From IMG/VR virus record IMGVR_UViG_3300044540_000022, positions 1 to 35,250 of that record: a stretch of DNA of 35,250 nt; one strand, 5' to 3'. Made by a program: the position numbers and the translations under genes. The notes below the pieces were generated by a model. It ran no database searches and had not been told where the DNA came from. It was given only the letters and a program-made list of their open reading frames with translations. Shown piece by piece: positions 5,305 through 30,955 of the stretch; positions within the stretch are counted from its first letter, which is position 1; every line of letters begins with the position of its first letter. This stretch comes from a virus.

Positions 5305-5336
5305 GCCCTGGGTTTCCACCCGGGGCATTTTTTTTT
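5305..5336 (+). terminator. Rho-independent terminator, TTTCCA loop
   Basis: An 8-bp stem (5305-5312 with 5319-5326), containing one U-G pair, encloses the loop TTTCCA and is followed by nine T (5328-5336). It closes the late/lysis operon. It is one of five hairpins in the window with this loop type. Confidence 0.88.
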
Positions 5337-5355
5337 GGAAAAACCTTCAAATAAA

Positions 5356-5388
5356 TTTGGAAGTTTGTTCTAATTTTGTGTAGTTTTG
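5356..5388 (+). promoter_or_regulatory. Bacteroidota-type promoter (start of early region)
   Basis: TTTG at 5356-5359 is followed, after 21 bases, by TAGTTTTG at 5381-5388. This fits the known Bacteroidota consensus TTTG-N(19-21)-TAnnTTTG. A second possible -7 box (TAATTTTG) lies at 5371. It stands directly after the terminator and before a CA-rich leader leading to the gene at 5412. Its left half (TTTGGAAGT) is repeated in the promoter at 16799. Confidence 0.8.
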
Positions 5389-5411
5389 TGTACACACAAC
5401 AAAAGACACAC

Positions 5412-5576
5412 ATGAAAACGATCTACCGACTCATCCGCAGACACAGCGGCGACACCGTCCGCGAGTTCCCGACCCTCGCCGAAGCCAGGCGATACAAGCG
5501 TGCCACCGAAGAGTCCGACAACAATCTCGGCATCTACCGCCGCGGGTATTACCTCATAGTCAAAATCGCGGCATGA
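5412..5576 (+). CDS. Small basic protein, unknown function
   Basis: A protein of 54 residues (MKTIYRLIRR...), rich in Arg and Tyr, with the strand/helix pattern of a small alpha/beta fold; LAEARRYKRATEE looks helical. The start at 5412 is preferred because it follows the ACACAC leader and promoter; an in-frame ATG at 5376 lies inside the promoter. It overlaps the next gene by ATGA. As the first gene after the early promoter, it is a candidate host-takeover protein. No family recognised. Confidence 0.72.
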   Translation: MKTIYRLIRRHSGDTVREFPTLAEARRYKRATEESDNNLGIYRRGYYLIVKIAA

Positions 5577-5755
5577 ACATCTACCACGTCACCATCGACC
5601 GCCGCGTAAAGCCGAAGGATGAACCCGATAAAGACTGGGTCACTACATTCCAGATCGCGTGCCGCTCCCTGCTCGACGCCCGTAAGAAGGCATCTCTCCG
5701 CGTACGAACTTCATATCCTCAATATTACATCATCGAAGTAAAACGTCATTGGTAA
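5573..5755 (+). CDS. Small protein, unknown function
   Basis: A 60-residue protein (MNIYHVTIDRRV...IIEVKRHW). Its layout resembles the preceding gene: a strand at each end and a central basic helix (LLDARKKASLRVR). The two may be distant duplicates. Starts by ATGA overlap at 5573 and ends in TAATG shared with the next gene. Function unknown. Confidence 0.7.
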   Translation: MNIYHVTIDRRVKPKDEPDKDWVTTFQIACRSLLDARKKASLRVRTSYPQYYIIEVKRHW

Positions 5756-5955
5756 TGGACATCCCCAAGCAATTATGGAACAAGTGGACGAACCTGTACA
5801 GCCGCGGCGACGCCGACAAGATCGCGGAGCTGGCCGACGTCCATCCGAACACGGTACTCAACGCCATCCGGAACGGCCGCTGTCGCACAGATCTTATGGA
5901 GGTAATTGGAAAGTTTTTCCAGGCCAAAGAAAAAACGCTAAACGAAATATCATGA
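5755..5955 (+). CDS. Helix-turn-helix DNA-binding protein
   Basis: The 66-residue protein has a helix-turn-helix core: DADKIAELADVHPNTVLNAI, then NGRC and a further helix EVIGKFFQAKEK. This matches small XRE-like phage regulators in Bacteroidota. The ATG at 5755 (TAATG overlap with the upstream stop) is chosen over a TTG at 5749. It lies third in the early operon, which suits a transcription switch. DNA binding is inferred from the fold pattern. Confidence 0.75.
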   Translation: MDIPKQLWNKWTNLYSRGDADKIAELADVHPNTVLNAIRNGRCRTDLMEVIGKFFQAKEKTLNEIS

Positions 5956-6023
5956 AAGACTCTACCGCCGTTATTCTGATTGTAGTAATTTGCCTGCTCA
6001 TTTGTCTGGCCGACAATTTCTGA
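5952..6023 (+). CDS. Tiny membrane protein (23 residues)
   Basis: ATG at 5952 overlaps the upstream stop by ATGA. The reading frame gives one hydrophobic helix (about AVILIVVICLLICLA) with a short DNF tail, stopping at 6021-6023. Coupled translation and the clean membrane segment support a real gene despite the small size. Function unknown. Confidence 0.55.
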   Translation: MKDSTAVILIVVICLLICLADNF

Positions 6024-6042
6024 CACACACATCCACACACAC

Positions 6043-6726
6043 ATGACACTCATCCAACACGAAAGCGCCATAACGACGGCGCTCATCCTACAGGGTGACC
6101 TCGCCGCCCTCCACCCTAACGACAAGGTCACCTATTACAAGGGTTACTGCGAGCGCCTCGGACTCGACCCCTACACGAAGCCCTTCGACATCCTACGTCT
6201 CAACGGGAAGGAGATCCTGTACCTTACACGTTCCGGCGCCCAGCAGCTCAACATGCTGCACAAGGTGAGCCATCAGATTACCTCCCGCCGGGTCATCGAT
6301 GACGCCGGCATCTATGAGGTCACTTGCCGGGCCACGCTCCCGGACGGACGTCACACGGAATCCATCGGCTCGGCATTCGTCGGCGGTCTCAAAGGCGAGG
6401 CCTACTGCAACGCGATGATGAAAGCCGAAACTAAGGCGAAGCGCAGGTCGACGCTCGACCTCATCGGTCTGGGGATCCTGTCGGAAGAAGAAACGACCGC
6501 CATCCCTGGCGCCCAGCAGGTCGAGGTCATCCTTGACCCGGAGCCGGTCGATGAGGAAAACGCACCCAAGCAATCCCTCCCGGACTTCATCATCGACCAG
6601 GTCGCCGGGTGCGACACCCTCGCACAGCTCAACAGCCTTTACCGATCCTACCAGCAGGACGTCGAGCGCCTCGGGCTGAGGCAATTCTTCACCGTCCGTA
6701 AATCGCAGATCAATGATTCCAACTGA
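6043..6726 (+). CDS. Phage recombination-type protein (candidate single-strand annealing)
   Basis: This 227-residue protein contains the patterns YCERLGLDPYTKPFDILRLN, LYLTRSGAQQLN, and GLKGEAYCNAMMKAETKAKRR followed by LDLIGLGILSEEE. I recall this layout from a widespread phage family that sits beside recombination and SSB genes and is often linked to RecT/Rad52-like annealing proteins. That link is from memory and not proved here. The C-terminal 70 residues are variable. It starts after a double CA-repeat leader (6023-6042). It would act in recombination or replication of phage DNA, together with the SSB-like protein at 7769. Confidence 0.65.
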   Translation: MTLIQHESAITTALILQGDLAALHPNDKVTYYKGYCERLGLDPYTKPFDILRLNGKEILYLTRSGAQQLNMLHKVSHQITSRRVIDDAGIYEVTCRATLPDGRHTESIGSAFVGGLKGEAYCNAMMKAETKAKRRSTLDLIGLGILSEEETTAIPGAQQVEVILDPEPVDEENAPKQSLPDFIIDQVAGCDTLAQLNSLYRSYQQDVERLGLRQFFTVRKSQINDSN

Positions 6727-6826
6727 ATACGGCATCGCTCTGTTCTGCGCCGGATACATCGTCGGCATGCTGACCGACTTCATCATCGACTTCTTCGAGC
6801 GCAGGGACCCGTCTAAACGCCGCTAA
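6713..6826 (+). CDS. Small membrane protein (37 residues)
   Basis: ATG at 6713 overlaps the end of the previous gene by 14 bases. The frame encodes one hydrophobic segment (GIALFCAGYIVGMLTDFIIDFF) and a basic tail ending RRDPSKRR. The basic C-terminus suggests the tail stays in the cytoplasm. It is too short for standard gene calling but is well placed. Function unknown. Confidence 0.5.
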   Translation: MIPTEYGIALFCAGYIVGMLTDFIIDFFERRDPSKRR

Positions 6827-6835
6827 ACCCACCGC

Positions 6836-6955
6836 ATGGAAATCTATTACAAGGCATTTTATTACGTCATGCTGGCGGCCTTCATCGGCTCCTGCATCTA
6901 CCTGTACATCGACGCCGTACAATATTCCCAAACCAATAAAAACGAAGACAAGTGA
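6836..6955 (+). CDS. Small membrane protein (39 residues)
   Basis: ATG at 6836 leads to a 39-residue product with one membrane helix (about YVMLAAFIGSCIYLYI) and a polar tail. The stop at 6953-6955 overlaps the GTG start of the next gene by GTGA, which supports coupled translation. Together with the 23- and 37-residue genes it forms a cluster of single-helix proteins around the recombination gene. Confidence 0.55.
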   Translation: MEIYYKAFYYVMLAAFIGSCIYLYIDAVQYSQTNKNEDK

Positions 6956-7386
6956 ACAGCATCACACACATCGACGATGTTAGGTTCGTAGACATCGCGC
7001 CGACTAAGTTCGGCATCGAACTCATGGCCGACGCCATCGCGGAAAACGTGAACTCCGGCAAGGTCGAAGCCCTCCCGCTCCAGGTCAAGATGAAGGCGGT
7101 CGAGGAACTGGTAAAGGCCGTGAACGAACGCGTCAAGCCCGTCGGCCTGGACGAACTGGCCAAGCATCCAAAGCATAAGGCCGAGGTATTGGGCGCAGCC
7201 ATCGCTATCGTCGACATCCCGAAATACGACTACTCCCACATCCCGGCCTGGTCGGAGCTGGACTCACAGATCCGTGAGCTGACGGAGCGTAAGAAGGCGA
7301 TTGAGGAGGATGAGAAAAAGTACCGCCGGGGCGAGCTTCCGGTCCTTTCGAATACCACGGCCATCAAAATCAACCTCGCAAAATGA
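6952..7386 (+). CDS. Conserved early phage protein with C-terminal coiled coil
   Basis: A 144-residue protein that uses a GTG start (6952) overlapping the upstream stop. The N-terminal half is mixed alpha/beta with several charged helices. The C-terminal part (WSELDSQIRELTERKKAIEEDEKKY) is a strong coiled-coil helix. Similar proteins lie next to recombination genes in other phages, sometimes of unknown role. It is coupled to the next gene by ATGA. No enzymatic motif is seen. Confidence 0.7.
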   Translation: MNSITHIDDVRFVDIAPTKFGIELMADAIAENVNSGKVEALPLQVKMKAVEELVKAVNERVKPVGLDELAKHPKHKAEVLGAAIAIVDIPKYDYSHIPAWSELDSQIRELTERKKAIEEDEKKYRRGELPVLSNTTAIKINLAK

Positions 7387-7595
7387 GCGCAAAGCACCAC
7401 AAGATTACGCCGGGTTTCACCTACATCGACCTGACCGGGGAGGCGCCGCCGGAGTTCCTCGAGTGCCAGGCGCTGCTCGAGAAAGCCACACCGGAGGCCG
7501 AAGAGCAGGCAAAGGCAACCCTCGCACAGTTCTTTGTCGAACTCCGTAAATGCTTCCAAAGCCATGAAGAAGACACCCCTCGAGATGGCGCTTGA
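7383..7595 (+). CDS. Small protein, unknown function
   Basis: A 70-residue protein (MSAKHHKITPGFTYIDLTGE...). The helical C-terminal half (EEQAKATLAQFFVELRKCF) follows a Pro-rich start. ATGA overlap with the previous gene. It overlaps the next gene by about 32 bases. Not recognised. Confidence 0.65.
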   Translation: MSAKHHKITPGFTYIDLTGEAPPEFLECQALLEKATPEAEEQAKATLAQFFVELRKCFQSHEEDTPRDGA

Positions 7596-7800
7596 TGCTA
7601 TGGCCAGGGACATTGACAAGCGGGTGGCAGGGCCGGTGAAGACCGCCCTTCAGCGCCAGCTCGACCTCGCCCACAGCTTCCTGGAGTTCGACCCGGAACA
7701 CGATCACGACGTCTACGTCGCCGGATTCAAAGATGGAATGAAGATTAACACAGATAAAACCGTAGCAGATGTCAGTAATTGCACTCAAGATCAACATTGA
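7564..7800 (+). CDS. Small helical protein, unknown function
   Basis: From the ATG at 7564 the product has 78 residues (MKKTPLEMALDAMARD...). It is mainly helical, with a YVAGFKDGMKI element. In-frame ATGs at 7585 and 7600 are alternatives that shorten the overlap with the preceding gene; a TTG at 7534 seems too early. It overlaps the SSB-like gene by 32 bases. No family recognised. Confidence 0.6.
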   Translation: MKKTPLEMALDAMARDIDKRVAGPVKTALQRQLDLAHSFLEFDPEHDHDVYVAGFKDGMKINTDKTVADVSNCTQDQH

Positions 7801-8125
7801 CCTTATCGAGCAGGCCCGGCTCTACCAAGGGCAGAAGGGGCGGTATCTCGACGCCATCCTATATCTGAACGACACGCCCGACCACTACGGTAACTGGGGG
7901 ATGATAACCCAGGCCGTCAGCAAGGAAGAGAAGGCGCAGGGCGTCCGGGGTCCGATCCTGGGCAATTGCAAGGTCATGGGGCAGAAGCCCGCCCAGGCGC
8001 CCATACAGGCACCACAGCCGCTCCAGCTCCAGCCGTTGCAACCCACCGCACCAAAGACGAACAAGGCCGCCAAGCCGCAGATGCCGCCGAATACGACGGT
8101 AGAGCCGGAGGACCTGCCTTTCTGA
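7769..8125 (+). CDS. Candidate single-stranded DNA-binding protein
   Basis: The 118-residue protein has three parts. The first is a compact N-terminal domain (1-70) with GRYLDAILYLND, YGNWGMITQAVSKEEKAQG and GPILGNCKV strings. The second is a long Pro/Gln-rich linker (75-105). The third is an acidic tip ending PEDLPF. A Pro/Gln linker with a D/E-D-L-P-F end is the classic partner-binding tail of bacterial SSB proteins. The N-terminal domain does not look like ordinary SSB, but I recall similar domains in Bacteroidota phages. It probably coats single-stranded phage DNA and recruits replication or repair proteins. Confidence 0.65.
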   Translation: MSVIALKINIDLIEQARLYQGQKGRYLDAILYLNDTPDHYGNWGMITQAVSKEEKAQGVRGPILGNCKVMGQKPAQAPIQAPQPLQLQPLQPTAPKTNKAAKPQMPPNTTVEPEDLPF

Positions 8126-8153
8126 TATTTCTCGGATGGTTCGAAAAAAGCAG

Positions 8154-8183
8154 GCCCGCCGCTTTGAGATGCGGGCATCTTTC
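8154..8183 (+). terminator. Probable terminator hairpin
   Basis: The stem GCCCGC (8154-8159) with GCGGGC (8171-8176) has an 11-base loop and a short T-rich tail (ATCTTT). Its loop holds the TTTG (8163-8166) of the next promoter, so terminator and promoter are interleaved. Confidence 0.55.
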
Positions 8184-8193
8184 CCTATCTTGT
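8163..8193 (+). promoter_or_regulatory. Promoter-like site, CCCTATCTT type
   Basis: TTTG (8163-8166), 19 bases, then TATCTTGT (8186-8193), one step away from TAnnTTTG. The following leader (CACAAAATGACACACATG) is nearly repeated at 18262-18284, before another stand-alone gene. Confidence 0.5.
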
Positions 8194-8208
8194 CACAAAA
8201 TGACACAC

Positions 8209-8520
8209 ATGAAGCACAAAGAACCACAACCGCCCACACCTGCACAGGTCGTCGGCATCGACACGAAGTTCGAGACGGTGACATCGTACGTCCGTTCGAC
8301 TGCCCACATCTATCAGATCCCGGACCCGCAACCGCTGTGCGACCTTATCGAGGCCCTGGAGCATCGCTGCCTCGCGGTCGCCTACGCCCTGGGTTACGAG
8401 AGGGCCAACGAGCTGCATGAACAGCAGCACGGGAAGGTACTCGAGGAGCCGTTCAGCAATTACCAGCACTGGCAGGGGTTCGAGGCAATCGACAAACACT
8501 TCACCTTCAAAAAGGACTGA
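8209..8520 (+). CDS. Unknown early protein
   Basis: The 103-residue product begins MKHKEPQPPTPAQ and continues with a helical core (DLIEALEHRCLAVAYALGYERANELHEQQ). The ATG at 8209 is preferred because ATGAAG after ACACAC is repeated at the parallel site at 18282; an in-frame ATG at 8200 is possible. First gene after its own promoter. No recognisable domain. The next gene starts two bases after its stop. Confidence 0.7.
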   Translation: MKHKEPQPPTPAQVVGIDTKFETVTSYVRSTAHIYQIPDPQPLCDLIEALEHRCLAVAYALGYERANELHEQQHGKVLEEPFSNYQHWQGFEAIDKHFTFKKD

Positions 8521-8521
8521 C

Positions 8522-8710
8522 ATGCACCACGAAGCTCGCGAAATGATAAAAGACCTCACCCTCGCCTTCATCGCGCAGGGCCAGGGGCCGAACACCGCCG
8601 TAACGAAGGCCATTGAGGCCGCCCAGCTGATCAGTGCATTCCTTCACGGCGACGACAGGCGGCGCAATATCGAGAGTGACAGTATCTTTGAGGAAACCGT
8701 CCTCGACTGA
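8522..8710 (+). CDS. Small helical protein, unknown function
   Basis: A 62-residue protein (MHHEAREMIKDLTLAFIAQGQ...) of almost pure helix with an acidic end. Two bases separate it from the upstream stop, and TGATG couples it to the next gene. No known family. Confidence 0.68.
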   Translation: MHHEAREMIKDLTLAFIAQGQGPNTAVTKAIEAAQLISAFLHGDDRRRNIESDSIFEETVLD

Positions 8711-8994
8711 TGTGGCAACGAATCCTTACCCTATTCGGCATATCAATACATAAACCCGAAAATAAAATCACGGTAATGATTACGACACCGCACGATCTCT
8801 ACGTTCTGCTCGAAGTCAACCAGGAGGGCGTAAGCACCAGCGAGGCGATGGATGAGGCGGCACTGTCCGCCTACATCGTAAATAAATACGGAGACCAGCC
8901 GCTGCGATACTTCAACGATTACAAGCGTCTAAAGGTCGTTCACCTGAAGACAGGCAAGGTGAAGGACGCGGCGCTGCGCATCGAATTTCAATAA
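8710..8994 (+). CDS. Unknown early protein
   Basis: A 94-residue protein (MWQRILTLFGISIHK...). The N-terminus is amphipathic. The rest alternates strands and helices (NKITVMITTPHDLYVLLEV, AALSAYIVNKYGD). It is the last gene before a hairpin at 9026. No motif recognised. Confidence 0.68.
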   Translation: MWQRILTLFGISIHKPENKITVMITTPHDLYVLLEVNQEGVSTSEAMDEAALSAYIVNKYGDQPLRYFNDYKRLKVVHLKTGKVKDAALRIEFQ

Positions 8995-9025
8995 CTCGGT
9001 TTTTATATGGCAAGCAATCGATTTC

Positions 9026-9057
9026 CCCGGACCGTTTCCACGGACTGGGTTTATTTG
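9026..9057 (+). terminator. Terminator-like hairpin, TTTCCA loop
   Basis: Stem 9026-9034 with 9041-9049 (nine positions, one A-A mismatch and one G-U pair) around TTTCCA, followed by TTTATTTG. It separates the early operon from the exported-protein gene. Confidence 0.6.
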
Positions 9058-9083
9058 AAAACAAATTAAACGCGAAATAAACC

Positions 9084-9314
9084 ATGAAAAGAATCACGAT
9101 TACCATCGGCCTGATAATGGCCCTTTCCCTACCGACGCAGGCGTGCAGCATCTGTGGCCCGGTCGAGCGGGCGCTGAAGTTCATGAAAAACTGGATCGAA
9201 TCGAGCCATTGCCTCACGATGCGCGCAAGGATCGCCCAGCTCCGGGGAGGCACCATCCCGCCATGCGACCACAATCCGAAGCACGACAACGCAGGCACGG
9301 AATCTAAAAAATAG
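9084..9314 (+). CDS. Small exported Cys-containing protein
   Basis: The 76-residue product starts with a signal peptide (MKRITITIGLIMALSLPTQA) followed at once by CSICGPVERAL. The Cys after A could be a weak lipobox (T-Q-A-C) or simply the first mature residue after signal peptidase I. Four Cys (C-x-x-C, SHC, PPC) may form disulfides in the periplasm. The gene stands alone between two hairpins at 9026 and 9347, so it probably has its own control. Its layout suits a superinfection-exclusion or envelope-acting phage extra, but this is inference. Confidence 0.7.
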   Translation: MKRITITIGLIMALSLPTQACSICGPVERALKFMKNWIESSHCLTMRARIAQLRGGTIPPCDHNPKHDNAGTESKK

Positions 9315-9346
9315 TTTTTTCGTGGTTTTCAGAGAGGTAAGCAACA

Positions 9347-9368
9347 CCCGGGCGTATCCACGCCTGGG
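9347..9368 (+). other. Hairpin with TATCCA loop
   Basis: An 8-bp stem (9347-9354 with 9361-9368), one G-U pair, loop TATCCA. There is no T tract, so it may be a processing or stabilising element just 5' of the tRNA-like sequence rather than a terminator. Confidence 0.5.
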
Positions 9369-9373
9369 ACATG

Positions 9374-9464
9374 GACCGGATGGCGTAAGCGGGAATGAAT
9401 ACCGCCCTGGGTAGCGACCTCGGATAGTATCGAGGGGATGCAGGTTCGAGTCCTGTTCCGGTCC
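9374..9464 (+). tRNA. tRNA-like element (acceptor and T arm clear, rest non-canonical)
   Basis: GACCGGA (9374-9380) pairs perfectly with TCCGGTC (9457-9463); one more G-C pair (9373-9464) would give eight. Directly inside the 3' strand is a T arm: GCAGG, loop TTCGAGT, CCTGT (9440-9456). This is exact tRNA geometry, and 91 bases would fit a class II tRNA. A D-stem GGCG/CGCC (9382, 9403) has a 17-base loop, too long. The best anticodon arm (CTGGG, loop TAGCGAC, CTCGG at 9407-9423) has A instead of T at position 33. A further hairpin lies at 9418-9435. No CCA is encoded. I cannot assign an amino acid. It may be a degenerate tRNA, a tRNA mimic or a real, odd class II tRNA. Confidence 0.45.
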
Positions 9465-9498
9465 CGGTTTTGTTTCATGACAGGTTGTTTTTTGGTTG

Positions 9499-9530
9499 CC
9501 TCCGGCGTTTCCACGCTGGAGGTTTTATTC
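9499..9530 (+). terminator. Rho-independent terminator, TTTCCA loop
   Basis: A 9-bp stem (9499-9507 with 9514-9522), one G-U pair, loop TTTCCA, then TTTTATTC. It ends the exported-protein/tRNA-like segment 29 bases before the HNH gene. Confidence 0.85.
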
Positions 9531-9558
9531 CATCTTCAACACAGCAACAAGCGAAGAA

Positions 9559-10182
9559 ATGGCCGCAAAGTGGACAGACAAGGAAATCGTCATCCTTAAA
9601 AGATTCTATTCCGATATGCCTACGATTGACCTGGCGAACAAGCTCGGTCGCACTTATGCCGGGGTCTATGGGAAGGCTAATATTTTAGGACTCAAGAAAT
9701 CCGATGGATACATACGTAGGCTACTCGAGATCGAGGCCGACAAGCTCCGCGTCGTAGGCGCAAAGAGCCGATTCAAGAATGGTCACGTACCACACCAGAA
9801 GGGCAAGAAGGCCACGCCGAAAGTCATGCAGGCATTGAGTAGGCACTGGTTTCAGAAGGGACGCGACCCGCATAATATCAAACCAGAGGGACATGAGAGG
9901 GTTGATGTCGACGGCTATGTAATGACCAGGGTTGAACGAGGCAAGTATGTACACAAGCATAGACTGGTATGGAAGGAAGCCGGGAGGGATGTGCCTGCCG
10001 GATACGTTGTAGGATTCAAGGATGGCAACCGTCTAAACTGCCAAATTGACAATCTGCACCTGGTCCACAGGCGTGAGATTATGGCGCGCAATACCATCCA
10101 CCGCCTGCCCGAAGAACTCAAGGATACCATAAGGACTCTCACCAAAATCAAAAAACACATACATGCCAAAGAACAAGATTGA
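9559..10182 (+). CDS. HNH endonuclease with N-terminal Myb/SANT-like domain
   Basis: The 207-residue protein starts at 9559 (MAAKWTDKEI...). Residues 1-45 look like a SANT/Myb-type helix-turn-helix (WTDKEIVILKRFY, IDLANKLGRTYAGVYGKA). Residues about 125-190 hold the HNH fold: VHKHRLVWKEAG, GYVVGFKDGNRLNCQIDNL, HLVHRREIMARN. The usual HH before KDGN is GF here, but the first His and the Asn residues remain. It would nick or cut double-stranded DNA; proteins of this type are commonly free-standing homing endonucleases or packaging-linked nucleases. A terminator lies directly before it, which fits insertion as a mobile gene. Confidence 0.82.
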   Translation: MAAKWTDKEIVILKRFYSDMPTIDLANKLGRTYAGVYGKANILGLKKSDGYIRRLLEIEADKLRVVGAKSRFKNGHVPHQKGKKATPKVMQALSRHWFQKGRDPHNIKPEGHERVDVDGYVMTRVERGKYVHKHRLVWKEAGRDVPAGYVVGFKDGNRLNCQIDNLHLVHRREIMARNTIHRLPEELKDTIRTLTKIKKHIHAKEQD

Positions 10183-10384
10183 AGACCTGCGAAACCATCT
10201 TTTCGCCACCCTGGAGGCGCTGCTGGATGAGGACAAGCCGATGGAGATAGACAGGGCGAAGGCCGTGGCAGACGTCGCCCAGGTGATCGTCAACAGCGCG
10301 AAGGTGGAGGTCGACTTCCTCCGTGCGACCGACCGAAGCCAGGGGAGCGGATTCCTTGTGGAGGAAAAAAAGCAGATCGGTTAG
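10163..10384 (+). CDS. Conserved small phage protein (near replication genes)
   Basis: A 73-residue helical protein with the pattern LRNHLFATLEALLDEDKPM, IDRAKAVADVAQVIVNSAKVEVDFL. I recall this pattern from very many phages, usually beside HNH or replication genes; function is unknown. It overlaps the HNH gene by 20 bases and is the last gene before the structured leader at 10385-10505. Confidence 0.8.
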   Translation: MPKNKIEDLRNHLFATLEALLDEDKPMEIDRAKAVADVAQVIVNSAKVEVDFLRATDRSQGSGFLVEEKKQIG

Positions 10385-10399
10385 TTCGCATAAAATGCC

Positions 10400-10407
10400 T
10401 ATCTTTG
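10400..10407 (+). promoter_or_regulatory. Promoter -7 box (TATCTTTG)
   Basis: A perfect TAnnTTTG box, but no TTTG is found 19-21 bases upstream (that stretch is inside the preceding gene). It would start a leader RNA of about 95 bases ahead of the replisome-organiser gene. Confidence 0.45.
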
Positions 10408-10463
10408 TGGCAGCTCCGCACGGTGTCCAGCACCATCGTTCGGGGTTATTCTGAACCCGTTAG

Positions 10464-10500
10464 AAGGTCGTCGGCGTGCTGGTCGGCGGCCTTTCTTTTT
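10464..10500 (+). terminator. Terminator/attenuator directly before a start codon
   Basis: A 12-bp stem (10464-10475 with 10482-10493) with three G-U pairs, loop GTGCTG, then TCTTTTT. It ends five bases before the ATG at 10506. Two more small hairpins precede it in the leader (GGTG/CACC near 10422, and GGGTT/AACCC near 10443). Confidence 0.7.
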
Positions 10501-10505
10501 GCATC

Positions 10506-11249
10506 ATGGCAGAGAATAAGAAGTCGTTCATCCTCTACGCCGACCTCATCCATACCGTCCGCAAGCTCCCACCTGACAAGGCCGGGGAGCTGTTTCTAAC
10601 GATTCTTTCATACGTCAATGACGAGAATCCTGTCGTCGACGATCTGCTCGTACAGGTCGCCTTCGAGCCTGTGCGTCAACAACTTAAGCGAGATTTACAG
10701 CGCTGGGCGGACTACCGGATAAAGCAGTCGGTTAACGGAAAAAGGGGTGGCCGGCCAACGAAACCCAACGAAAGCCAAGAAAACCCAAAAAACCCAAGCC
10801 TTTTTTTGGAAAGCCAAAAAAGCCTAAATGCTAATGTAAATGCTAATGTTACTGCTAATGTAAATGTCATAGACAATATTACCGACAATAAGGGAGAGAG
10901 AGAGCGCAAAAAACAAGTTTTTGCGCCACCTGATCCATGGGAGGTTGTCGATTACGCAAAGGAGATCGTCGCCGGGAGCGAGAGCGCTCCGCAGGACTTC
11001 TACGATTACTACCAGTCCAACGGATGGAAGGTCGGCAACAAGGGCGCGATGAAGGACTGGCGGGCCGCATTCCGGCGGTGGGCAAAGAACGAAAAAACGA
11101 TGAAACATGATACCAATCAACCAGGCTCTTACCGGGGCCTCTCCGCGAGAACTAAAGCAGACTGGGACGCACTCCAGGAGTGGGGACGCGATATTGAACA
11201 GGGAAGAGTCCGCGTTCCTGGAAGCGCTGGGGGCGCCCAGGCTCCGTAA
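10506..11249 (+). CDS. Replisome organiser / DnaD-DnaT-like replication initiation protein
   Basis: The 247-residue protein has three parts. The N-terminal domain (1-80) has ILYADLIHTVRKLPPDKAG and AFEPVRQQLKRDLQRW, a phage winged-helix-like type (DUF6291-like). A low-complexity linker includes NANVNANVTANVNV. The C-terminal motif DFYDYYQSNGWKVGNKGAM, then KDWRAAFRRWAKNE, is the mark of DnaD/DnaT-like phage replication proteins. It probably loads a helicase at the origin. The start at 10506 is preferred because a 10476 start would be inside the attenuator stem. The linker DNA (10780-10920) is A+T rich and repetitive. Confidence 0.78.
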   Translation: MAENKKSFILYADLIHTVRKLPPDKAGELFLTILSYVNDENPVVDDLLVQVAFEPVRQQLKRDLQRWADYRIKQSVNGKRGGRPTKPNESQENPKNPSLFLESQKSLNANVNANVTANVNVIDNITDNKGERERKKQVFAPPDPWEVVDYAKEIVAGSESAPQDFYDYYQSNGWKVGNKGAMKDWRAAFRRWAKNEKTMKHDTNQPGSYRGLSARTKADWDALQEWGRDIEQGRVRVPGSAGGAQAP

Positions 11250-11877
11250 CTGCATGGATGACGCCATCATCCCGCAGCTCCGCTACCTGTTCAACCTCAT
11301 CGGCATCCGGCAGGAAAACTACCCGACGCAGGAGGCTACCTTGATAATCTGCGATCAGATCCGCACGAACCACGGCACGCTGACGATCAAGGAACTCCGT
11401 CTCGCCTTTGAGATGGCGGCGGCCTTGAAGCTCGACTTCAATCCGCACAGCTTCCAAAACGTGAGCGCCCTATACGTTAACGACCTCGTTTCCGCCTACA
11501 AGCGCTGGTCCACATCGACCTATCACCAGCTGCGCCCTGGAGGCGACCGGGAGTCGGAGGCCTCCGCGCCGGATTACTCGCCTCGCATCTACGAACGCCT
11601 GCCCGTTTCCGTCCTGCGCTGGAAGATTCAGATGGGATACCACAACTTTCTCGCCGGGTTTATCCCGAACTGGAGATACATCCCTTACGATTGGTGGCAC
11701 CAATGCGTAGAGGACGGGTTCATCGAATACGACCCGGATGCGGACGTGAAGGAGAATCTCCGCTTTAACCAGGTCATGGAAGACGACAAGCGCAAGCTGC
11801 GAAACAGCCAACAAATGGTTTGGCTCCTGTTGGAGCAGGCGAAAGGCATGGGCGCTAAAAACATCTACCGCGAATGA
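11107..11877 (+). CDS. Conserved Bacteroidota phage replication-associated protein
   Basis: The frame runs for 256 residues. The core (about 30-140) carries FLEALGAPRLRNC, LFNLIGI..YPT, CDQIRTNHGTLTIKELRLAFEMAA and SFQNVSALYVNDLVSAYKRW. This layout is common in proteins that follow the replisome organiser in Bacteroidota elements; the biochemical role is unknown. The start is uncertain. The ATG at 11107 overlaps the upstream gene by 143 bases; a TTG at 11194 or the ATG at 11254 would shorten this. Homology seems to begin before 11254, so 11254 is unlikely. It ends in ATGA overlap with the next gene. Confidence 0.72.
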   Translation: MIPINQALTGASPRELKQTGTHSRSGDAILNREESAFLEALGAPRLRNCMDDAIIPQLRYLFNLIGIRQENYPTQEATLIICDQIRTNHGTLTIKELRLAFEMAAALKLDFNPHSFQNVSALYVNDLVSAYKRWSTSTYHQLRPGGDRESEASAPDYSPRIYERLPVSVLRWKIQMGYHNFLAGFIPNWRYIPYDWWHQCVEDGFIEYDPDADVKENLRFNQVMEDDKRKLRNSQQMVWLLLEQAKGMGAKNIYRE

Positions 11878-12290
11878 ACACCAGGGAGGCCGTCACCCGG
11901 CTGGCAAAGGTCGGCATGATCATCGACGAGGTCACGAACGTCAGTTTTCAGATGCTTATCCGTGAACACGCCGACATCGGTTCGTTCGTCCGGCTGGACT
12001 CGATCCGAAAAATATACATGGAAAAATACGCCCTTGAAATAAAAAAGGGTAAATTACAGCCGATAGAACATGCGACCGAAGAAATCAAACGCCACTACTG
12101 GGACTGGGCCGGCCAATACACCTCCGACCGCCAAACACGCACAGAGGGCGCCAAAGTCATCTACCTCATCGAATGGCTATGCGCCCAAGCCATTGACAGC
12201 GGGGGAGCTGACGGAATCGGCGCTGAAGATCCTACGCCTGCGCAACTGTACGGTATGGCGACAAAACAACCTGCGCGTTCCCGGCCGTAA
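11874..12290 (+). CDS. Unknown protein in the replication block
   Basis: A 138-residue protein, helical and charged (REAVTRLAKVGMIIDEVTN, IRKIYMEKYALEIKKGKLQP, EEIKRHYWDWAGQYTSDRQ). The N-terminus is coupled by ATGA to the previous gene. The last 30 residues (GGADGIGAEDPTPAQ...) are of low complexity and lie over the start of the VRR-NUC gene, so they may be poorly conserved. Not recognised. Confidence 0.65.
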   Translation: MNTREAVTRLAKVGMIIDEVTNVSFQMLIREHADIGSFVRLDSIRKIYMEKYALEIKKGKLQPIEHATEEIKRHYWDWAGQYTSDRQTRTEGAKVIYLIEWLCAQAIDSGGADGIGAEDPTPAQLYGMATKQPARSRP

Positions 12291-16304: not shown

Positions 16305-16305
16305 G

Positions 16306-16512: not shown

Positions 16513-16513
16513 T

Positions 16514-16753: not shown

Positions 16754-16798
16754 ATACTTTCTAAATCTCACAATTTCCCAAAAAAAGACACAGAATTA

Positions 16799-20748: not shown

Positions 20749-20753
20749 TTAGC
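20744..20753 (+). promoter_or_regulatory. CTAATTA start-proximal motif 1
   Basis: GCTAATTAGC, a perfect 10-base palindrome, with its CTAATTA ending five bases before the ATG at 20757. Includes the stop codon of the preceding gene. Confidence 0.55.
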
Positions 20754-20756
20754 GGC

Positions 20757-24046: not shown

Positions 24047-24047
24047 C

Positions 24048-25940: not shown

Positions 25941-26109
25941 AGCGCAGTTTAAACCGCTAAACCGGCAAAATGGAGGAATCCTCCAAAAATCCTCTACCTA
26001 TACGGTTGGAGTACGGTAGCAATCCGCGGACTGCAACCCACCCAAATAGTATCTTCCCCCCGGCTTCCCCCCGTTAGGTCACCCGCTCCCTGCCATGCTA
26101 ATTACGGGC
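25941..26109 (+). other. Structured intergenic region between tail and head modules
   Basis: A 169-base gap with TAAACCG repeated twice (25950-25964), a hairpin TGGAGG/CCTCCA (25971-25985), a longer imperfect hairpin (26004-26038, GGTTG/CAACC outer stem, loop TAGCAAT) and the tandem CTTCCCCCCGG repeat near 26053-26073. It ends in the CTAATTA motif. No clear promoter boxes. It may be a late control or packaging-related element. Confidence 0.4.
26097..26104 (+). promoter_or_regulatory. CTAATTA start-proximal motif 2
   Basis: GCTAATTA, five bases before the ATG at 26110, in a gap not touched by the previous gene. This supports 26110 rather than the ATG at 26095, which lies across the motif. Confidence 0.6.
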
Positions 26110-27156
26110 ATGGATAAGGAACTGCCCGTCTACGACCTAATGATAAGCGAGGACCCACTCGCAGAGGAGGAGGTCGATTTCATCGCCCTTGTGGATAAGC
26201 CCGCCATCGAGCGCAATTTCCTTGCATTCAGCGAGGATGAGACGTTCGTCGAACCCGGCCCAACCGAAACGGAGGACGAGTTCATCGGCAGGTGCATTCC
26301 GTACATGATGGACGAAGGCATGCCGCAGGACCAGGCGGCGGCGGTCTGTTACTCGAAATGGGAGGACAGGGCGAAGTTCCAGGAGTCCTATTCCGACTAC
26401 CCGGACGCCGTTCGTAACAACGCCCGTGCGGCGCTCAAATGGGCAGAGGAAAACGGGTGGGGGTCATGTGGCACAGCAGTCGGTAAGCAACGGGCCAACC
26501 AGCTTGCCAATGGGGAGCCGGTGAGCCTCGAGACCATCAAGCGCATGTACAGCTTTCTATCCCGCCATAAAGTCAGCGCGGAGGCCTCGAAGGGCTACGG
26601 CGACGGGTGCGGGCAGCTCATGTACGACGCATGGGGCGGGGCCTCGGCCCTATCCTGGGCGGAGTCGAAGATAAGGCAGGCCGAACGGGCAAGGGCGGCC
26701 TTCGCCATCCAGGACGAAGAACAGCGCATCATATCCGGACCGCTCATCGTGGCAGACCGCAAGATTTACCGCCGGGATGACAAGGGCGAATACTACGTGG
26801 TTTTTCCACGTGAAACGGTGAAGGCGATAGCGATCAAATATTTCAAAAAGGGATACCAGGGCAACGTGAACCTGATGCACGACAGCGGCCAAGTGGTCGG
26901 CGGGGTGACGATGTTCGAGTCCTGGATAAAGGATTCGGAGCGCGGCATACCTGGCATGGAGGGCTTCGAGGACCTGCCCGACGGGACCTGGTTCGGCTCC
27001 TTCAAGGTCGACAACGAGGACGTGTGGGCGCGGATAAAGTCCGGCGAGGTCAAGGGGTTCAGCGTCGAGGGGGTGTTCAATTATGAGCGTTCCGGCGCCG
27101 AGAAGGAGGACGCCCTGCTCTCCGCCATCGTTCGGATCCTGGAGAAGGTCAAGTAG
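26110..27156 (+). CDS. Prohead protease, XkdF-like, with two extra N-terminal domains
   Basis: From 26110 the product has 348 residues. Residues about 1-95 include an acidic start (ISEDPLAEEEVDFIALVDKP), then EDEFIGRCIPYMMDEGMPQD and AAAVCYSKWED, common in phage proteases. Residues about 95-190 hold SDYPDAVRNNARAALKWAEE, NGWGSCGTAVGKQRANQLAN and GCGQLMYDAWGG, a module of unknown function found in capsid-linked phage proteins. Residues about 200-330 are the XkdF-type domain: ISGPLIVADRKIYRRD, VNLMHDSGQVVGGVTMFESW, ARIKSGEVKGFSVEGVF, with candidate catalytic His and Ser. It likely cuts scaffold and capsid during head maturation. Confidence 0.8.
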   Translation: MDKELPVYDLMISEDPLAEEEVDFIALVDKPAIERNFLAFSEDETFVEPGPTETEDEFIGRCIPYMMDEGMPQDQAAAVCYSKWEDRAKFQESYSDYPDAVRNNARAALKWAEENGWGSCGTAVGKQRANQLANGEPVSLETIKRMYSFLSRHKVSAEASKGYGDGCGQLMYDAWGGASALSWAESKIRQAERARAAFAIQDEEQRIISGPLIVADRKIYRRDDKGEYYVVFPRETVKAIAIKYFKKGYQGNVNLMHDSGQVVGGVTMFESWIKDSERGIPGMEGFEDLPDGTWFGSFKVDNEDVWARIKSGEVKGFSVEGVFNYERSGAEKEDALLSAIVRILEKVK

Positions 27157-27166
27157 ACACGAACCC

Positions 27167-27174
27167 GCTAATTA
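27167..27174 (+). promoter_or_regulatory. CTAATTA start-proximal motif 3
   Basis: GCTAATTA, five bases before the ATG at 27180 and ten bases after the previous stop, so it is free of coding constraint. Confidence 0.6.
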
Positions 27175-27179
27175 GGCGC

Positions 27180-27530
27180 ATGGCAGGAGACTTCAGGCCC
27201 GGGACCTATAACATAAAGCTGTGGCGTGGGAATACGTGGCAGAACACCTTCAAGATCTACACCAACGGGGTCGCGGAGAACCTATCGACGGCCGAAGTCC
27301 GCATCCAGCTACGAGTGAAGCCGAACAGCCCGACCGCCGTCGTCACCCTCACGGAGGCGTCCGGCATCACGGTCGGAGGGGTGGCAAATAATGAAATCGT
27401 CGTTTCCGCGCGCATCAACATCGACCCGAAGCTGTACTACTGGGACGTCCTGGTCGTCAAGGGCGGCGTTTACAAAACCTACCTACAGGGCAAGTTTGAG
27501 GTTTACGAGGAAATAACCGAACCGGCATGA
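27180..27530 (+). CDS. Virion protein, baseplate/fibre-type beta domain
   Basis: A 116-residue beta-sandwich-like protein: YNIKLWRGNTWQNTFKIYTN, VAENLSTAEVRIQLRVKP, YYWDVLVVKGGVYKTYLQGK. The opening 'RGNTW...F.I..NG' is familiar from phage receptor-binding or baseplate-upper (BppU-like) proteins. The small size suggests an adaptor that carries another fibre. ATGA overlap with the C1q-like gene next to it suggests that they form one structure. Confidence 0.65.
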   Translation: MAGDFRPGTYNIKLWRGNTWQNTFKIYTNGVAENLSTAEVRIQLRVKPNSPTAVVTLTEASGITVGGVANNEIVVSARINIDPKLYYWDVLVVKGGVYKTYLQGKFEVYEEITEPA

Positions 27531-28033
27531 GCGTAACCGTCGACATAATCGAACAGACCGTCTCCGTCTACGACGGGGCTACGAAATACTACGGGTCATT
27601 CTACTCTACCCAGGATCAGACGAACGCGGGCGCAACGTCCGTGAACAAGGTCACGATGAACCAAACCGACCTCTCCAACGGGGTCACGGTCGTGTCGAAC
27701 AGCCGAATAACTATCGCTAATCCGGGCGTGTATAACATCGCCTTCTCGGTTCAGCTGGAGAAGACCGACAGCGGCGACGATGCCGTGCAGATATGGCTGC
27801 AAAAGGGAGGCGTCAACGTAGACAATACCGCGACCGAGGTAACCATAGTGGGCAACAACGGCAAGTTCGTCGCCGCGTGGAACTTCTTCGTGCAGGCGGC
27901 CGCCGGGGACTATTATGAGCTGTGCTGGCACAGCGCGGATACCGCGGTCAGCCTCCAGGCGCAGGGCACGGCATCAAACCCGACCCGCCCTGCAATTCCT
28001 TCCGTAATCGTAACCGTAAATCAAGTATCATGA
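27527..28033 (+). CDS. Fibre head-like jelly-roll protein (C1q/TNF-like)
   Basis: The 168-residue protein has the strands typical of C1q/TNF-like trimeric head domains in phages: YYGSFYSTQDQTNAGATS, RITIANPGVYNIAFSVQLEK, DAVQIWLQKGGVNVDNTATE, FVAAWNFFVQAAAGDYYELC. It lacks a collagen-like stalk. It may decorate the capsid or bind carbohydrate. ATGA overlap links it to the exported gene that follows. Confidence 0.72.
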   Translation: MSVTVDIIEQTVSVYDGATKYYGSFYSTQDQTNAGATSVNKVTMNQTDLSNGVTVVSNSRITIANPGVYNIAFSVQLEKTDSGDDAVQIWLQKGGVNVDNTATEVTIVGNNGKFVAAWNFFVQAAAGDYYELCWHSADTAVSLQAQGTASNPTRPAIPSVIVTVNQVS

Positions 28034-28452
28034 AATATCGCATCTTATTGATTCTCATTGCGTTCGGTTTGAGCGCAATGGCACAGCGAAAGCAACCCGC
28101 CTCCACGCCGACCATAAGGGTGGACACGGCCAAGACGGGCGTGGTATTTTCAGACAGTGCGAGGCCGAAGAAAAAAGGCATCGACGTGAATCCGGTCAAG
28201 GTATGGAAGGATGGCAAGACCGTGGACGGCGTCGACCTCGACGTGGACGTCGCCTATGAGGACCTGGACAAGTTGGTGCGCTTTTACTACCAGCTCAAGG
28301 ATTCGGCCGGCGCACAAATCGCCAACGGTAACGTGGAGGTCAGCGGCGATGAATATGAGGATTACAAAACCAAGCCGAACCACGCTCAAAGGGCCTACCA
28401 GATCGTCCTCCGCCACCTCCGCCTTCAACAGAAACCCCAAACCGTAAACTGA
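28030..28452 (+). CDS. Exported protein with signal peptide, unknown function
   Basis: The 140-residue protein starts MKYRILLILIAFGLSAMAQR, a standard signal peptide cut after A-M-A or A-Q. The mature part is hydrophilic (KTVDGVDLDVDVAYEDLDKL, YYQLKDSAGAQIANGNVEVS) and has no membrane anchor. An exported, soluble protein in the middle of the capsid/fibre genes is unusual. It might act in the periplasm before lysis, or be exposed on cells. Function unknown. Confidence 0.7.
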   Translation: MKYRILLILIAFGLSAMAQRKQPASTPTIRVDTAKTGVVFSDSARPKKKGIDVNPVKVWKDGKTVDGVDLDVDVAYEDLDKLVRFYYQLKDSAGAQIANGNVEVSGDEYEDYKTKPNHAQRAYQIVLRHLRLQQKPQTVN

Positions 28453-28458
28453 TACAAC

Positions 28459-28716
28459 ATGCAGCAGTTCAGCAAGTTCTTCGCCATCAACGGCCGCGAC
28501 CTGGTCAAAGGCGTAATCGTCGCCGTCCTCACGGTGGTGGTGACGGCTCTCGCCACCAGCCTTGAAGCCGGAAGCCTACCGACCCTCGACCAATGGAAAC
28601 AGATCGGGATGATGGCCGCCGCCGCCGGCATATCCTACTTTCTCAAAAACTTCTTGACCAACAGCGAGGACAAGTTCCTTTCCACCGAACCGAAGGCGGA
28701 AGAGCCGGAGGCCTAA
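28459..28716 (+). CDS. Holin-like membrane protein
   Basis: The 85-residue protein has two membrane segments (about 18-38, GVIVAVLTVVVTALATSL, and 48-63, IGMMAAAAGISYFLKNF) separated by a short loop, and an acidic Glu/Pro-rich tail. FFAINGRDLVKG, the loop with LDQWKQIG and YFLKNFLTNSEDKF match proteins called holins in Bacteroidota phages. Holins open the inner membrane at a set time to release the endolysin. The gene is far from the endolysin (4788), which is unusual but possible in late transcripts. Confidence 0.65.
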   Translation: MQQFSKFFAINGRDLVKGVIVAVLTVVVTALATSLEAGSLPTLDQWKQIGMMAAAAGISYFLKNFLTNSEDKFLSTEPKAEEPEA

Positions 28717-28754
28717 ATGGTACATTCCACAAAAACGCACTAAATACCCGCAAG

Positions 28755-29357
28755 ATGACGCCCAAAGAAGCACTCGATAAGATTCGTCAGCTGTTCGCCG
28801 ACCCGTCCGTCGCAGCTCCCGCCACCGAACCGGCTCCCGCCGTCATGGAGGCGAAAGAGTACGTCCTCGAAGGGGGCGCGAAGGTCCTGGTCTCCGAACT
28901 CGAACCCGGCGGCATGGTGTCGCTGGTGGACGACCAGGGCGCGACCTCTCCCGCTCCGGCCGGTGAGCATAAGCTCGTCGACGGCACAGTAATTACCGTG
29001 AACGAGGCCGGCACGATCACCGCCGTCATGATGCCGGAAGCGCCGGTCATGCCGGAGGATGAGCTGGCCAAGAAGCTCGATGAGAAAATGGCCGCCATCC
29101 GCGAGGATGTGCAGAAGGAAAACGACGCCATCCGTCAGCTGATCGAGAACCTCGCCAAACACGATGAGTTCAAGGCCACCGTCGAAGGCATCAACGCGAA
29201 GCTGCAAGGTCTCGCTGACGCCGTGACCGCCCTGCTCGACACCCCGTCCGCTGATCCGATCCAGGAGCCGAAAGACAAGTTCGAGAAGACAGAAAAGAAA
29301 AATGAGCGCTTGCAGGCCGTTGCCGACATGCTCACGAAACTGAAATCCAAAGCATAA
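28755..29357 (+). CDS. Capsid scaffold-like protein
   Basis: The 200-residue protein starts MTPKEALDKIRQLF. The first half contains a small beta domain: EYVLEGGAKVLVSELEPGGM, VDDQGATSPAPAGEHKLVDG, TVITVNEAGTITAV. Next come an acidic helix and coiled coil (ELAKKLDEKMAAIREDVQKE, FKATVEGINAKLQGLADAV) and a basic end (ERLQAVADMLTKLKSKA). A helical protein with basic end just before the capsid gene is the expected scaffold. The beta domain is typical of Bacteroidota versions. It would be cut by the XkdF-like protease. Confidence 0.75.
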   Translation: MTPKEALDKIRQLFADPSVAAPATEPAPAVMEAKEYVLEGGAKVLVSELEPGGMVSLVDDQGATSPAPAGEHKLVDGTVITVNEAGTITAVMMPEAPVMPEDELAKKLDEKMAAIREDVQKENDAIRQLIENLAKHDEFKATVEGINAKLQGLADAVTALLDTPSADPIQEPKDKFEKTEKKNERLQAVADMLTKLKSKA

Positions 29358-29379
29358 CAACCCCTAAAATTCAATAAAC

Positions 29380-30333
29380 ATGGGATTCTCCCTCGGTACA
29401 TTGACCCCCTACGTGGAGCAGAATGAGCAGCTCCTGGTCGCCAGCTCCGTTCTGGGCGCCAAAACCCAGCAGCTCATCCAGGCCGGCGGCACCATCATGG
29501 CCCGCGTGAAGTCGAAGGAGACCATCAACGTGATGTACACCGACGCCATCTTCCAGGCCGGCGGTACCTGCGGATTCCTCACCTCCGGCACCACATCGAT
29601 CACCCAGCGCGAAGTCGAGGTCGGCAAGTTCAAAGTGAACGAGGCCATCTGCCCGAAGGACCTCGAAGCCTACTACACCCAAAAGGCCCTCGCCGCCGGA
29701 AGCCGTTACGACACGATGGCCTTCGCCGAAGAGTACACCGCCCGGAAGGCCGCGAAGATCGCCGCCCAGCTCGAGACCGCGCTGTGGCAGGGTGACAAGA
29801 CCAGCGTGAACGTGAACCTCAACAAGTTCGACGGTCTGATCGAGCTGATCAAGGATGCCGGCGTAACCGTCATCAACGCCAACTCCATCGCCTTCCACGG
29901 TTCGGTTGAGACCGACATCACCAACTCCAACGTGGTCGCAATCTTCGATTCGATCTACAAAGCCATCCCGGCCGAGATCGTCGACAAGGATGACACAAAG
30001 ATTTTCTGCGGCATGGACGTCTTCAGGACGCTGACCGTGAAGATCAAAAACGACGATCTGTTCCACTACCAGGTTGTGGCCGCTCCGAACACGTCCTTCT
30101 TCCTTCCTGGAACCCAGATCGAGGTCGTAGGAACCCCCGGACTGAACGGAACCAAGAAGGTGTACGCGATGCGCGTGTCGAACCTCTACCTCGGTACCGA
30201 CATCCTCGATGAGGATCAGAACCGCTGGGAGCTGTTCTTCGCCCGCGAGGCCGACCAGGTGCGCTTCGTGTCCGAGTTCAAGCTGGGCATCAACTTCGCC
30301 TTCCCCCAGGAGATCGTGAAGTTCGAGGTATAA
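29380..30333 (+). CDS. Major capsid protein, HK97-type
   Basis: The 317-residue protein (MGFSLGTLTPYVEQNEQLLV...) follows the scaffold gene by 22 bases. IMARVKSKETINVMYTDAIF and TTSITQREVEVGKFKVNEAI are early strands of the HK97 fold. FAEEYTARKAAKIAAQLETA resembles the long spine helix, and the late part has TKIFCGMDVFRTLTVKIKN and GTPGLNGTKKVYAMRVSNLY. Codon use is very regular, as in highly expressed genes. The fold call rests on pattern and place. A stable hairpin follows the gene. Confidence 0.85.
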   Translation: MGFSLGTLTPYVEQNEQLLVASSVLGAKTQQLIQAGGTIMARVKSKETINVMYTDAIFQAGGTCGFLTSGTTSITQREVEVGKFKVNEAICPKDLEAYYTQKALAAGSRYDTMAFAEEYTARKAAKIAAQLETALWQGDKTSVNVNLNKFDGLIELIKDAGVTVINANSIAFHGSVETDITNSNVVAIFDSIYKAIPAEIVDKDDTKIFCGMDVFRTLTVKIKNDDLFHYQVVAAPNTSFFLPGTQIEVVGTPGLNGTKKVYAMRVSNLYLGTDILDEDQNRWELFFAREADQVRFVSEFKLGINFAFPQEIVKFEV

Positions 30334-30345
30334 TTCCATCTAACC

Positions 30346-30369
30346 GGGGAGGGGCTACGGCCTCTCCCC
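30346..30369 (+). other. Very stable hairpin with UACG tetraloop after the capsid gene
   Basis: A 10-bp stem (30346-30355 with 30360-30369), one G-U pair, closes a C(UACG)G tetraloop of the stable UNCG class. No T tract follows, so it is more likely an mRNA stabiliser or partial block than a full terminator. Confidence 0.7.
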
Positions 30370-30384
30370 ACAACCATACAAGCA

Positions 30385-30897
30385 ATGAGCTGCGCCCTAA
30401 CACAAGGATATACCTTCGATTGTAAGGACAACATCGGCGGCCTTAAAAGCGTATGGTTCATCGGATGGAATGACGTCTCCAGCGTGACCGAATCATCCGG
30501 AACCATAACCGCGATCACGAAGGCATCCGGCAAGGTCTTCTATAAGTACCAGCTGGTCCGCAACACGTCGAGCTTCACGGAGAACATCGCCGGGTCGATC
30601 GAGAACGGCACCGTGGTCTACAACCAGGAGCTTCTGATCGTCATCAACAAGATGCAGGTCAGCATGCGGAACGAAATCCTGCTCCTGGCGAAGAACAACA
30701 TGATGGCCGTCGTCGAAGATCAGAACGGCCGTTACTGGCTGGCCGGTCGCTACAACGGCCTCGACCTGCTTTCGGGCAGCGCCTCCACCGGCCTCGCCCA
30801 AGCGGACCGGAACGGTTATTCGCTCACCTTCTCCGGTGGCGAAAAGGAAATGGCTCCGGCCGTACAGGCCTCCGTCATCGCGACGCTGACCGCCTAA
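30385..30897 (+). CDS. Tail tube-like / structural protein
   Basis: The 170-residue protein (MSCALTQGYTFDCKDNIGG...) has FTENIAGSIENGTVVYNQEL, LIVINKMQVSMRNEILLLAK, VVEDQNGRYWLAGRYNGLDL and GYSLTFSGGEKEMAPAVQAS. I recall this pattern as a structural protein that follows the capsid in Bacteroidota phages. A single small beta domain with a helix is the usual layout of tail tube subunits. A terminator follows, as expected for a highly expressed virion gene. The tube role is inferred. Confidence 0.65.
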   Translation: MSCALTQGYTFDCKDNIGGLKSVWFIGWNDVSSVTESSGTITAITKASGKVFYKYQLVRNTSSFTENIAGSIENGTVVYNQELLIVINKMQVSMRNEILLLAKNNMMAVVEDQNGRYWLAGRYNGLDLLSGSASTGLAQADRNGYSLTFSGGEKEMAPAVQASVIATLTA

Positions 30898-30922
30898 ACC
30901 GATACTTTGCTTCATAGACATC

Positions 30923-30955
30923 GGGCCGCCCTTTCCAGGGTGGCCCTTCTTATTT
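30923..30955 (+). terminator. Rho-independent terminator, TTTCCA loop
   Basis: A 9-bp stem (30923-30931 with 30938-30946), one G-U pair, loop TTTCCA, then TTCTTATTT. It limits transcription after the capsid and tube genes. A tiny frame (ATG 30961, M-A-D-F-R) follows. Confidence 0.85.

Follow-up and report, generated by a model that had tools for sequence, protein, structure and literature searches.

A family of U(UUCY)A-loop hairpins in a predicted tailed phage and its probable role at Bacteroidota transcript ends

Results

The 35,250-base virus record IMGVR_UViG_3300044540_000022, analysed over its whole length and called the window below, encodes proteins matching terminase, portal, tape-measure protein and protease, by which it is classified as a predicted tailed phage. 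Most of its genes are located on the + strand, and the nearest named phage to its portal protein is Nonlabens phage P12024S (24% identity). This analysis concerns five short hairpins, which an initial annotation had described as a family with the loop TTTCCA in four cases and TATCCA in one. Coordinates and loops of all five were confirmed, and each is present on the + strand, the gene strand, in a gap between genes (Table 1). Hairpin 5305 starts about 40 nucleotides (nt) past the gene of an M15-peptidase (endolysin-like, 4788-5264) and is the probable terminator of a late/early boundary. Hairpin 9026 sits between small genes, hairpin 9499 is placed 3' of a tRNA-like gene and ahead of the gene for an HNH endonuclease, and hairpin 30923 follows 25 nt past the gene at 30385-30897, ahead of the portal operon.

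Table 1. Hairpins of the window and features associated with them. Pairs are numbered outward from the hexaloop.
Feature	Position	Strand	Description
Hairpin 5305	5305..5326	+	Loop TTTCCA; single U.G at pair 4; U-tract 5328-5336
Promoter-like sequence	5356..5388	+	Bacteroidota-type, TTTG-21-TAGTTTTG, behind hairpin 5305; counterpart in relatives G001, G002 and G003
Lead-in of hairpin 9026	9005..9020	+	Type II, ATATGGCAAGCAATCG; identical to chromosomal and viral copies
Hairpin 9026	9026..9049	+	Loop TTTCCA; A.A mismatch at pair 4, G.U at pair 6; tail TTTATTTG
Lead-in of hairpin 9347	9326..9346	+	Degenerate, type II-like, TTTTCAGAGAGGTAAGCAACA; weak (p 0.006 random, 0.024 AT-matched)
Hairpin 9347	9347..9368	+	Loop TATCCA; G.U at pair 5; without U-tract; ends 4 nt ahead of tRNA-like gene
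tRNA-like gene	9373..9465	+	Between hairpins 9347 and 9499; ARAGORN tRNA-??? at 9374-9465; Rfam tRNA 26.2 bits, below gathering score of 29
Lead-in of hairpin 9499	9473..9497	+	Type I-like, TTTCATGACAGGTTGTTTTTTGGTT; p 0.0004 random, 0.0003 AT-matched
Hairpin 9499	9499..9522 (extends to 9498-9523)	+	Loop TTTCCA; G.U at pair 4; tail TTTTATT
HNH (homing-type) endonuclease gene	9559-10182		Directly after the tRNA-like unit
Hairpin 30923	30923..30946	+	Loop TTTCCA; G.U at pair 4; tail TTCTTATTTG
Promoter-like sequence	30953..30983	+	TTTG-19-TAATTATC; overlaps U-rich tail of hairpin 30923; TAATTATG version in relatives

In RNAfold, a T-A pair closes the hexaloop, leaving a UUCC or AUCC tetraloop. 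The hairpins are stable and G+C-rich, with sense RNA energies of -12.7 to -21.8 kcal/mol and z values of -3.6 to -5.2 for four of them (-1.75 for 9026). The U-tract 3' of the stem is good at 5305, partial at 9026, 9499 and 30923, and absent at 9347. As annotated, exactly one G-U pair per hairpin, in three cases at pair 4, is found within eight to nine positions; the mismatch at pair 4 of hairpin 9026 had gone unmentioned, and hairpin 9499, if extended, gains a second G.U as its outermost pair. No Rfam family was matched by the window hairpins at gathering score. When the window was searched with a covariance model trained on relatives only, exactly these five hairpins were recovered, at E values between 6e-6 and 0.035, and no further match had E<=5; training that includes the five gives the same result, but by construction. 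A generic terminator scan and a sigma-70 promoter scan of the window gave no excess over shuffles, owing to the low specificity of the scanning.

The right clade of relatives was reached via the portal protein, for which the best 80 of 195 relatives were kept (56-69% identity; some contigs near-complete). Together with the window, the 21 relative contigs examined make up the 22 phage contigs referred to below. At the loci of TerL relatives no TTTCYA hairpin of comparable quality was found, positions 10476-11249 of the window retrieved no relative when used as query, and the named phages P12024S, 6H and 11b are without the loop. The family proved to be real and wider than claimed: TTTCTA also falls within its consensus loop, T[T/A]TC[C/T]A, and many of the hairpins are preceded by a conserved sequence. 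When T[AT]TC[CT]A hairpins were catalogued from the relatives, the window and the portal loci, 87 matches (41 distinct) were obtained, of which 85 were on the gene strand and 2 on the other. Since this catalogue itself selects on the loop, three loop-independent tests were needed, in which elements were collected as all U-tailed hairpins, by position or by lead-in.

Among all U-tailed hairpins of the 22 phage contigs, the loop was present in 28/113 on the gene strand (strict set 23/56) versus 0/70 on the opposite strand, and in 0/21 of one first-order resample. In Bacteroidota chromosome samples totalling 1.1 Mb and taken from seven genomes, four of them chosen since a pattern matched them, it was found once in 298 U-tailed hairpins (strict set 1/90), and a host-wide preference for the loop is rejected for these genomes. 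As to the annotation's refuting condition, an equal loop frequency in host terminators, the loop is rare among U-tailed hairpins of the sampled chromosomes, although a special class of host hairpins with a lead-in does use it. These counts speak against the view that the hairpins are ordinary terminators whose loops resemble each other through base composition and thermodynamics only. By position, a U-tailed hairpin was detected about 2-3.3 kb upstream of the portal gene in 34/46 loci, and in 31 of these 34 its loop is TTTCYA. Immediately before the portal gene, 69/74 loci have a U-tailed hairpin, with TWTCYA in 5/69 and CTTCGG in 18/69. Both counts use the best-scoring pick, and some TTTCTA hairpins (e.g. 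in G002 and G003) may be missed. Retention of the hairpin without its loop, which the annotation had named as evidence against the family, is thus seen just before the portal gene but not at the more distant site, and the UUCG-type loops that substitute there are a point in favour of ordinary terminators.

Upstream of many hairpins of phages and chromosomes, a conserved lead-in of 17-25 nt was found, either of type II (TTTTTCATATRGCAAGCAATCG), of type I (TTTTCTCATAAGCAGTTRGTTTTGG) or of rarer forms, with a spacing to the hairpin of mostly 1-11 nt. Lead-ins were searched alone, without the loop, and what comes 3' was then classed. At bacterial loci, the 47 distinct elements with type II lead-in comprised 40 TTTCYA, 3 similar and 4 other loops, and all seven with type I lead-in had TTTCYA (in total 47/54, plus 3 similar). 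At viral loci, 31 elements of type II (12 TTTCYA, 12 similar, 7 other) and 25 of type I (16, 5 and 4) gave 28/56 plus 17 similar, totals that retain the distinct ones among seven of 41 viral lead-in matches in which no element was recognised by eye (L457, L464, L474, L467, L482, L470 and L471). The numbers of distinct stems were 28 and 7 for bacterial type II and type I and 27 and 22 for the viral counterparts. Linkage of the loop to a lead-in again argues against ordinary terminators. Exact conservation of the 17-nt unpaired lead-in while stems differ, as in a recognised sequence, favours another explanation, in which lead-in and UUUCYA hairpin would be bound or processed by an RNA-binding protein or a ribonuclease of the host; such a site would terminate transcription only with a U-tract, keep tRNAs and small genes apart in arrays transcribed together and shield 3' ends. 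The loop itself may, as the annotation proposed, be a site for protein binding. We know of no factor reading the element, which counts against this explanation, as do the U-tracts in most copies and the UUCG-type loops before the portal gene. The stretches upstream of the lead-ins (n = 113) include homology groups of 27, 8 and 7.

The exact type II 17-mer was found in 4/198 genomes phylum-wide versus 77/117 genomes in the family of G023, a sample that had 0 control matches and contains all seven genomes positive in an earlier lead-in-only search. G023, the genome of L163, is listed as Chitinophagaceae bacterium UBA8137, and relatives of the window's portal (49-50% identity) are encoded on two of its contigs. 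Judged by this distribution, the element probably marks one bacterial family, Chitinophagaceae, the name being taken from G023 and not from the window's own host. Among the genes that chromosomal copies follow are one for HSP20 and some for outer-membrane proteins. The hairpin model had matches at E<=1 in 19/61 Bacteroidota genomes, ten of the matches in one genome (G057). Rfam searches with chromosomal and viral copies returned no family, two nearby tRNAs aside, and short BLAST searches with the lead-ins returned chance-level matches in plasmids and phages, or none. On chromosomes of the G023 family (L434, L524-L529), units of about 390-560 nt are arranged in tandem, each with a lead-in and a U-tailed hairpin at its end, and long reading frames are missing from their plus strand; those of L434 had no Rfam match, and the units are possibly an unlabelled noncoding RNA family.

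To the stems, covariation analysis was applied. In 54 distinct hairpins 98.8% of cells were paired, with 176 two-sided changes versus a shuffled mean of 55, and the covariation score was 1.14 versus at most 0.47 when the alignment was slid. Of 21 clusters, into which 39 distinct hairpins, many of them related by descent, were grouped, 11 had a non-Watson-Crick pair at pair 4 (permutation mean 3.2, p ~1e-4) and 18 had one at pairs 3-5 (permutation mean 9.2, p ~1e-4), and none of the clusters was fully Watson-Crick over eight pairs. Covariation, enrichment at pair 4 and site-wise retention of the loop support the claim that loop and wobble are kept while the stem changes. Other-loop U-tailed hairpins of the same phages show the peak at pair 4 too (20/43), and bacterial ones are flat (37/293). 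That no such peak was obtained for bacterial hairpins (36/276) or distant TerL relatives (10/70) is a further argument against ordinary terminators, a reading already disfavoured and, in our estimate, the least probable of those considered. In its favour, and against the simplest reading of the weak pair, fully paired stems are also scarce in the distant TerL relatives (7/70); only the position of the weak pair is special, not the scarcity of fully paired stems. The 18-mer CCGGCGTTTCCACGCTGG recurs unchanged in three other viral contigs (L309, L311 and L313), there as part of a longer U-tailed stem whose weak pair is pair 4; 18-mer matches in L310 and L312 are without U-tail and were treated as chance.

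Of 82 non-Watson-Crick pairs 76 were G.U and none was A.C. The mean RNA energy of 61 hairpins was -15.2 kcal/mol for the sense and -11.3 kcal/mol for the antisense strand, which is weaker by 3.9 kcal/mol, and the mean DNA energy was -7.4 versus -6.2 for the opposite strand. The proposal that the wobble makes the element work in one direction only agrees with this average difference, but antisense versions of the five window hairpins still fold at -10.5 to -18.3 kcal/mol, by which strict one-way function is rejected, and the U-tract already sets the direction.

Units of hairpin, tRNA or tRNA-like gene and hairpin were observed in the window, G001 (tRNA-Phe), G003 (Rfam tRNA, 34.9 bits) and L385 (46.8 bits). 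The first hairpin ends 4 nt ahead of the gene in the window, G001 and G003, and TTATTT intervenes in L385; the order hairpin-tRNA recurs in the further viral contigs L460 and L494 (5 nt apart) and L462 (10 nt). Copies directly 5' of tRNA genes are mostly without U-tract (window 9347, G001, G003, L460, L494 and L462), which favours a binding or processing site, whereas TTATTT ahead of the tRNA of L385 speaks against it. On balance we consider such a site an improbable explanation. As a U-tract is missing at 9347 and at its counterparts in G001 and G003, the role of the element cannot be confined to termination, and since a terminator 5' of a tRNA would cut the tRNA off, a second role is kept in view. 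Family hairpins frame tRNA-like genes with odd anticodon regions in the window (9373-9465), L385 (15075-15144) and L170 (19495-19612); ARAGORN reports tRNA-??? in two of the three, and the form in L170 has 118 nt.

These units, of which that of the window is adjoined by the HNH endonuclease gene, and the occurrence of the same 18-mer core at different sites in the window, G001 and G002 might also indicate cassette boundaries, where recombination would swap small genes and tRNAs as in the PeSL promoter-terminator cassettes of T4-type phages (Arbiol 2010; Comeau 2014; both as cited in PMC4503421). As far as the consulted sections describe them, PeSLs consist of a stem-loop beside a promoter, repeated between small genes, an arrangement resembled by those family members that have a promoter-like sequence (two of five in the window, 10/37 overall), but in the window family the promoter-like sequence is of Bacteroidota type and comes after the hairpin, the phage group is apparently unrelated, and the element is common to host chromosomes. 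Orthologous sites are stable across relatives, and the stems, since they differ between copies, would be a poor substrate for homologous recombination, which leaves cassette boundaries quite unlikely.

According to the consulted sections of PMC7366714 and PMC6847099, the Bacteroidota promoter consensus (sigma-ABfr) is TTTG / TAnnTTTG, about 19-21 nt apart. Positions 5356-5388 agree with this consensus; positions 30953-30983, with TAATTATC, do not. TTTG-18..22-TAnnTWTG was present behind 10/37 distinct hairpins versus a mean of 0.5 and a maximum of 3 in 200 AT-matched draws, and TAnnTWTG behind 24/37 versus a mean of 3.3; these counts are not independent, since many of the 37 hairpins are orthologous. 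For the gene before the portal gene, TAATTAT(G/C) lies a few bases ahead of the start codon in the window (30976-30990) and in relatives, as if the transcript were nearly leaderless.

Discussion

Taken together, the five hairpins are probably (with a probability of about 0.6) the phage members of a transcript-end element of Bacteroidota, probably Chitinophagaceae, that mostly acts as an intrinsic terminator. The element consists of a short, G+C-rich hairpin, whose apical loop is U(UUCY)A, and in most copies a U-tract; a conserved single-stranded lead-in of type II or type I is optional. Its RNA would fold on leaving RNA polymerase, and hairpin and U-tract would bring transcription to a stop where operons end. 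Directly after hairpins 5305 and 30923, a promoter resembling TTTG/TAnnTTTG is predicted, and because of this position the unit would close one operon and open the next. A G.U or mismatch near pair 4 may lower the stability of the antisense RNA and the DNA while the sense RNA hairpin stays strong. The copy at 9347, without U-tract, more likely marks or separates a co-transcribed unit.

Gene-strand bias, U-tracts, positions after stop codons, covariation, loop retention at an orthologous site (31/34), lead-in linkage, promoter-like sequences and the places of chromosomal copies behind genes argue for a transcript-end element. Several observations weigh against it: U-tracts are lacking at 9347 and beside the tRNAs of G001 and G003, many of the clustered hairpins share descent, no lead-in was detected at 5305 and 30923 when looked for, a promoter-like sequence follows only two of the five window hairpins, and TAGTTTTG carries a G that is avoided by Flavobacterium promoters (PMC6847099, in the section consulted). 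A more far-reaching version, in which Chitinophagaceae and their phages have a new RNA element that combines a fixed unpaired lead-in with a U(UUCY)A hairpin, is read by a dedicated host factor, has a selected weak pair, serves as terminator and as spacer of tRNAs and genes and is the main punctuation mark of these phages, is put forward only tentatively and seems to us rather unlikely.

With intrinsic (Rho-independent) terminators the family shares the G+C-rich hairpin, the place behind stop codons and, in most copies, the U-tract, and it differs from them in the fixed U(UUCY)A loop, the weak pair near pair 4, the frequent lead-in and the copies without U-tract. C(UUCG)G tetraloop hairpins, which are used between cistrons in T4, also have a UUC-containing tetraloop, and CTTCGG is the commonest replacement at one site. 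The window family, in contrast, has a U-A closing pair and a UUCC/UUCU loop, which we take to be outside the UNCG class; the window loops are U(UUCC)A or U(AUCC)A, and none is C(UUCG)G. No description of this loop family or lead-in was found in the open-licence literature searched, including PMC4503421, PMC7366714, PMC6847099 and PMC1524935; most likely, the hairpins are intrinsic terminators of a host type that is absent from this literature.

The element provides a sequence signature for transcript ends in one bacterial family and its viruses, with which transcription units could be delimited in genomes and uncultured phages linked with their hosts. It raises the questions what keeps 17 nt of unpaired sequence and the loop constant when the stem can vary freely, and why full pairing at pairs 3-5 is avoided in these phage terminators. 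Were the element recognised by a protein, this protein would be a new factor in termination or processing.

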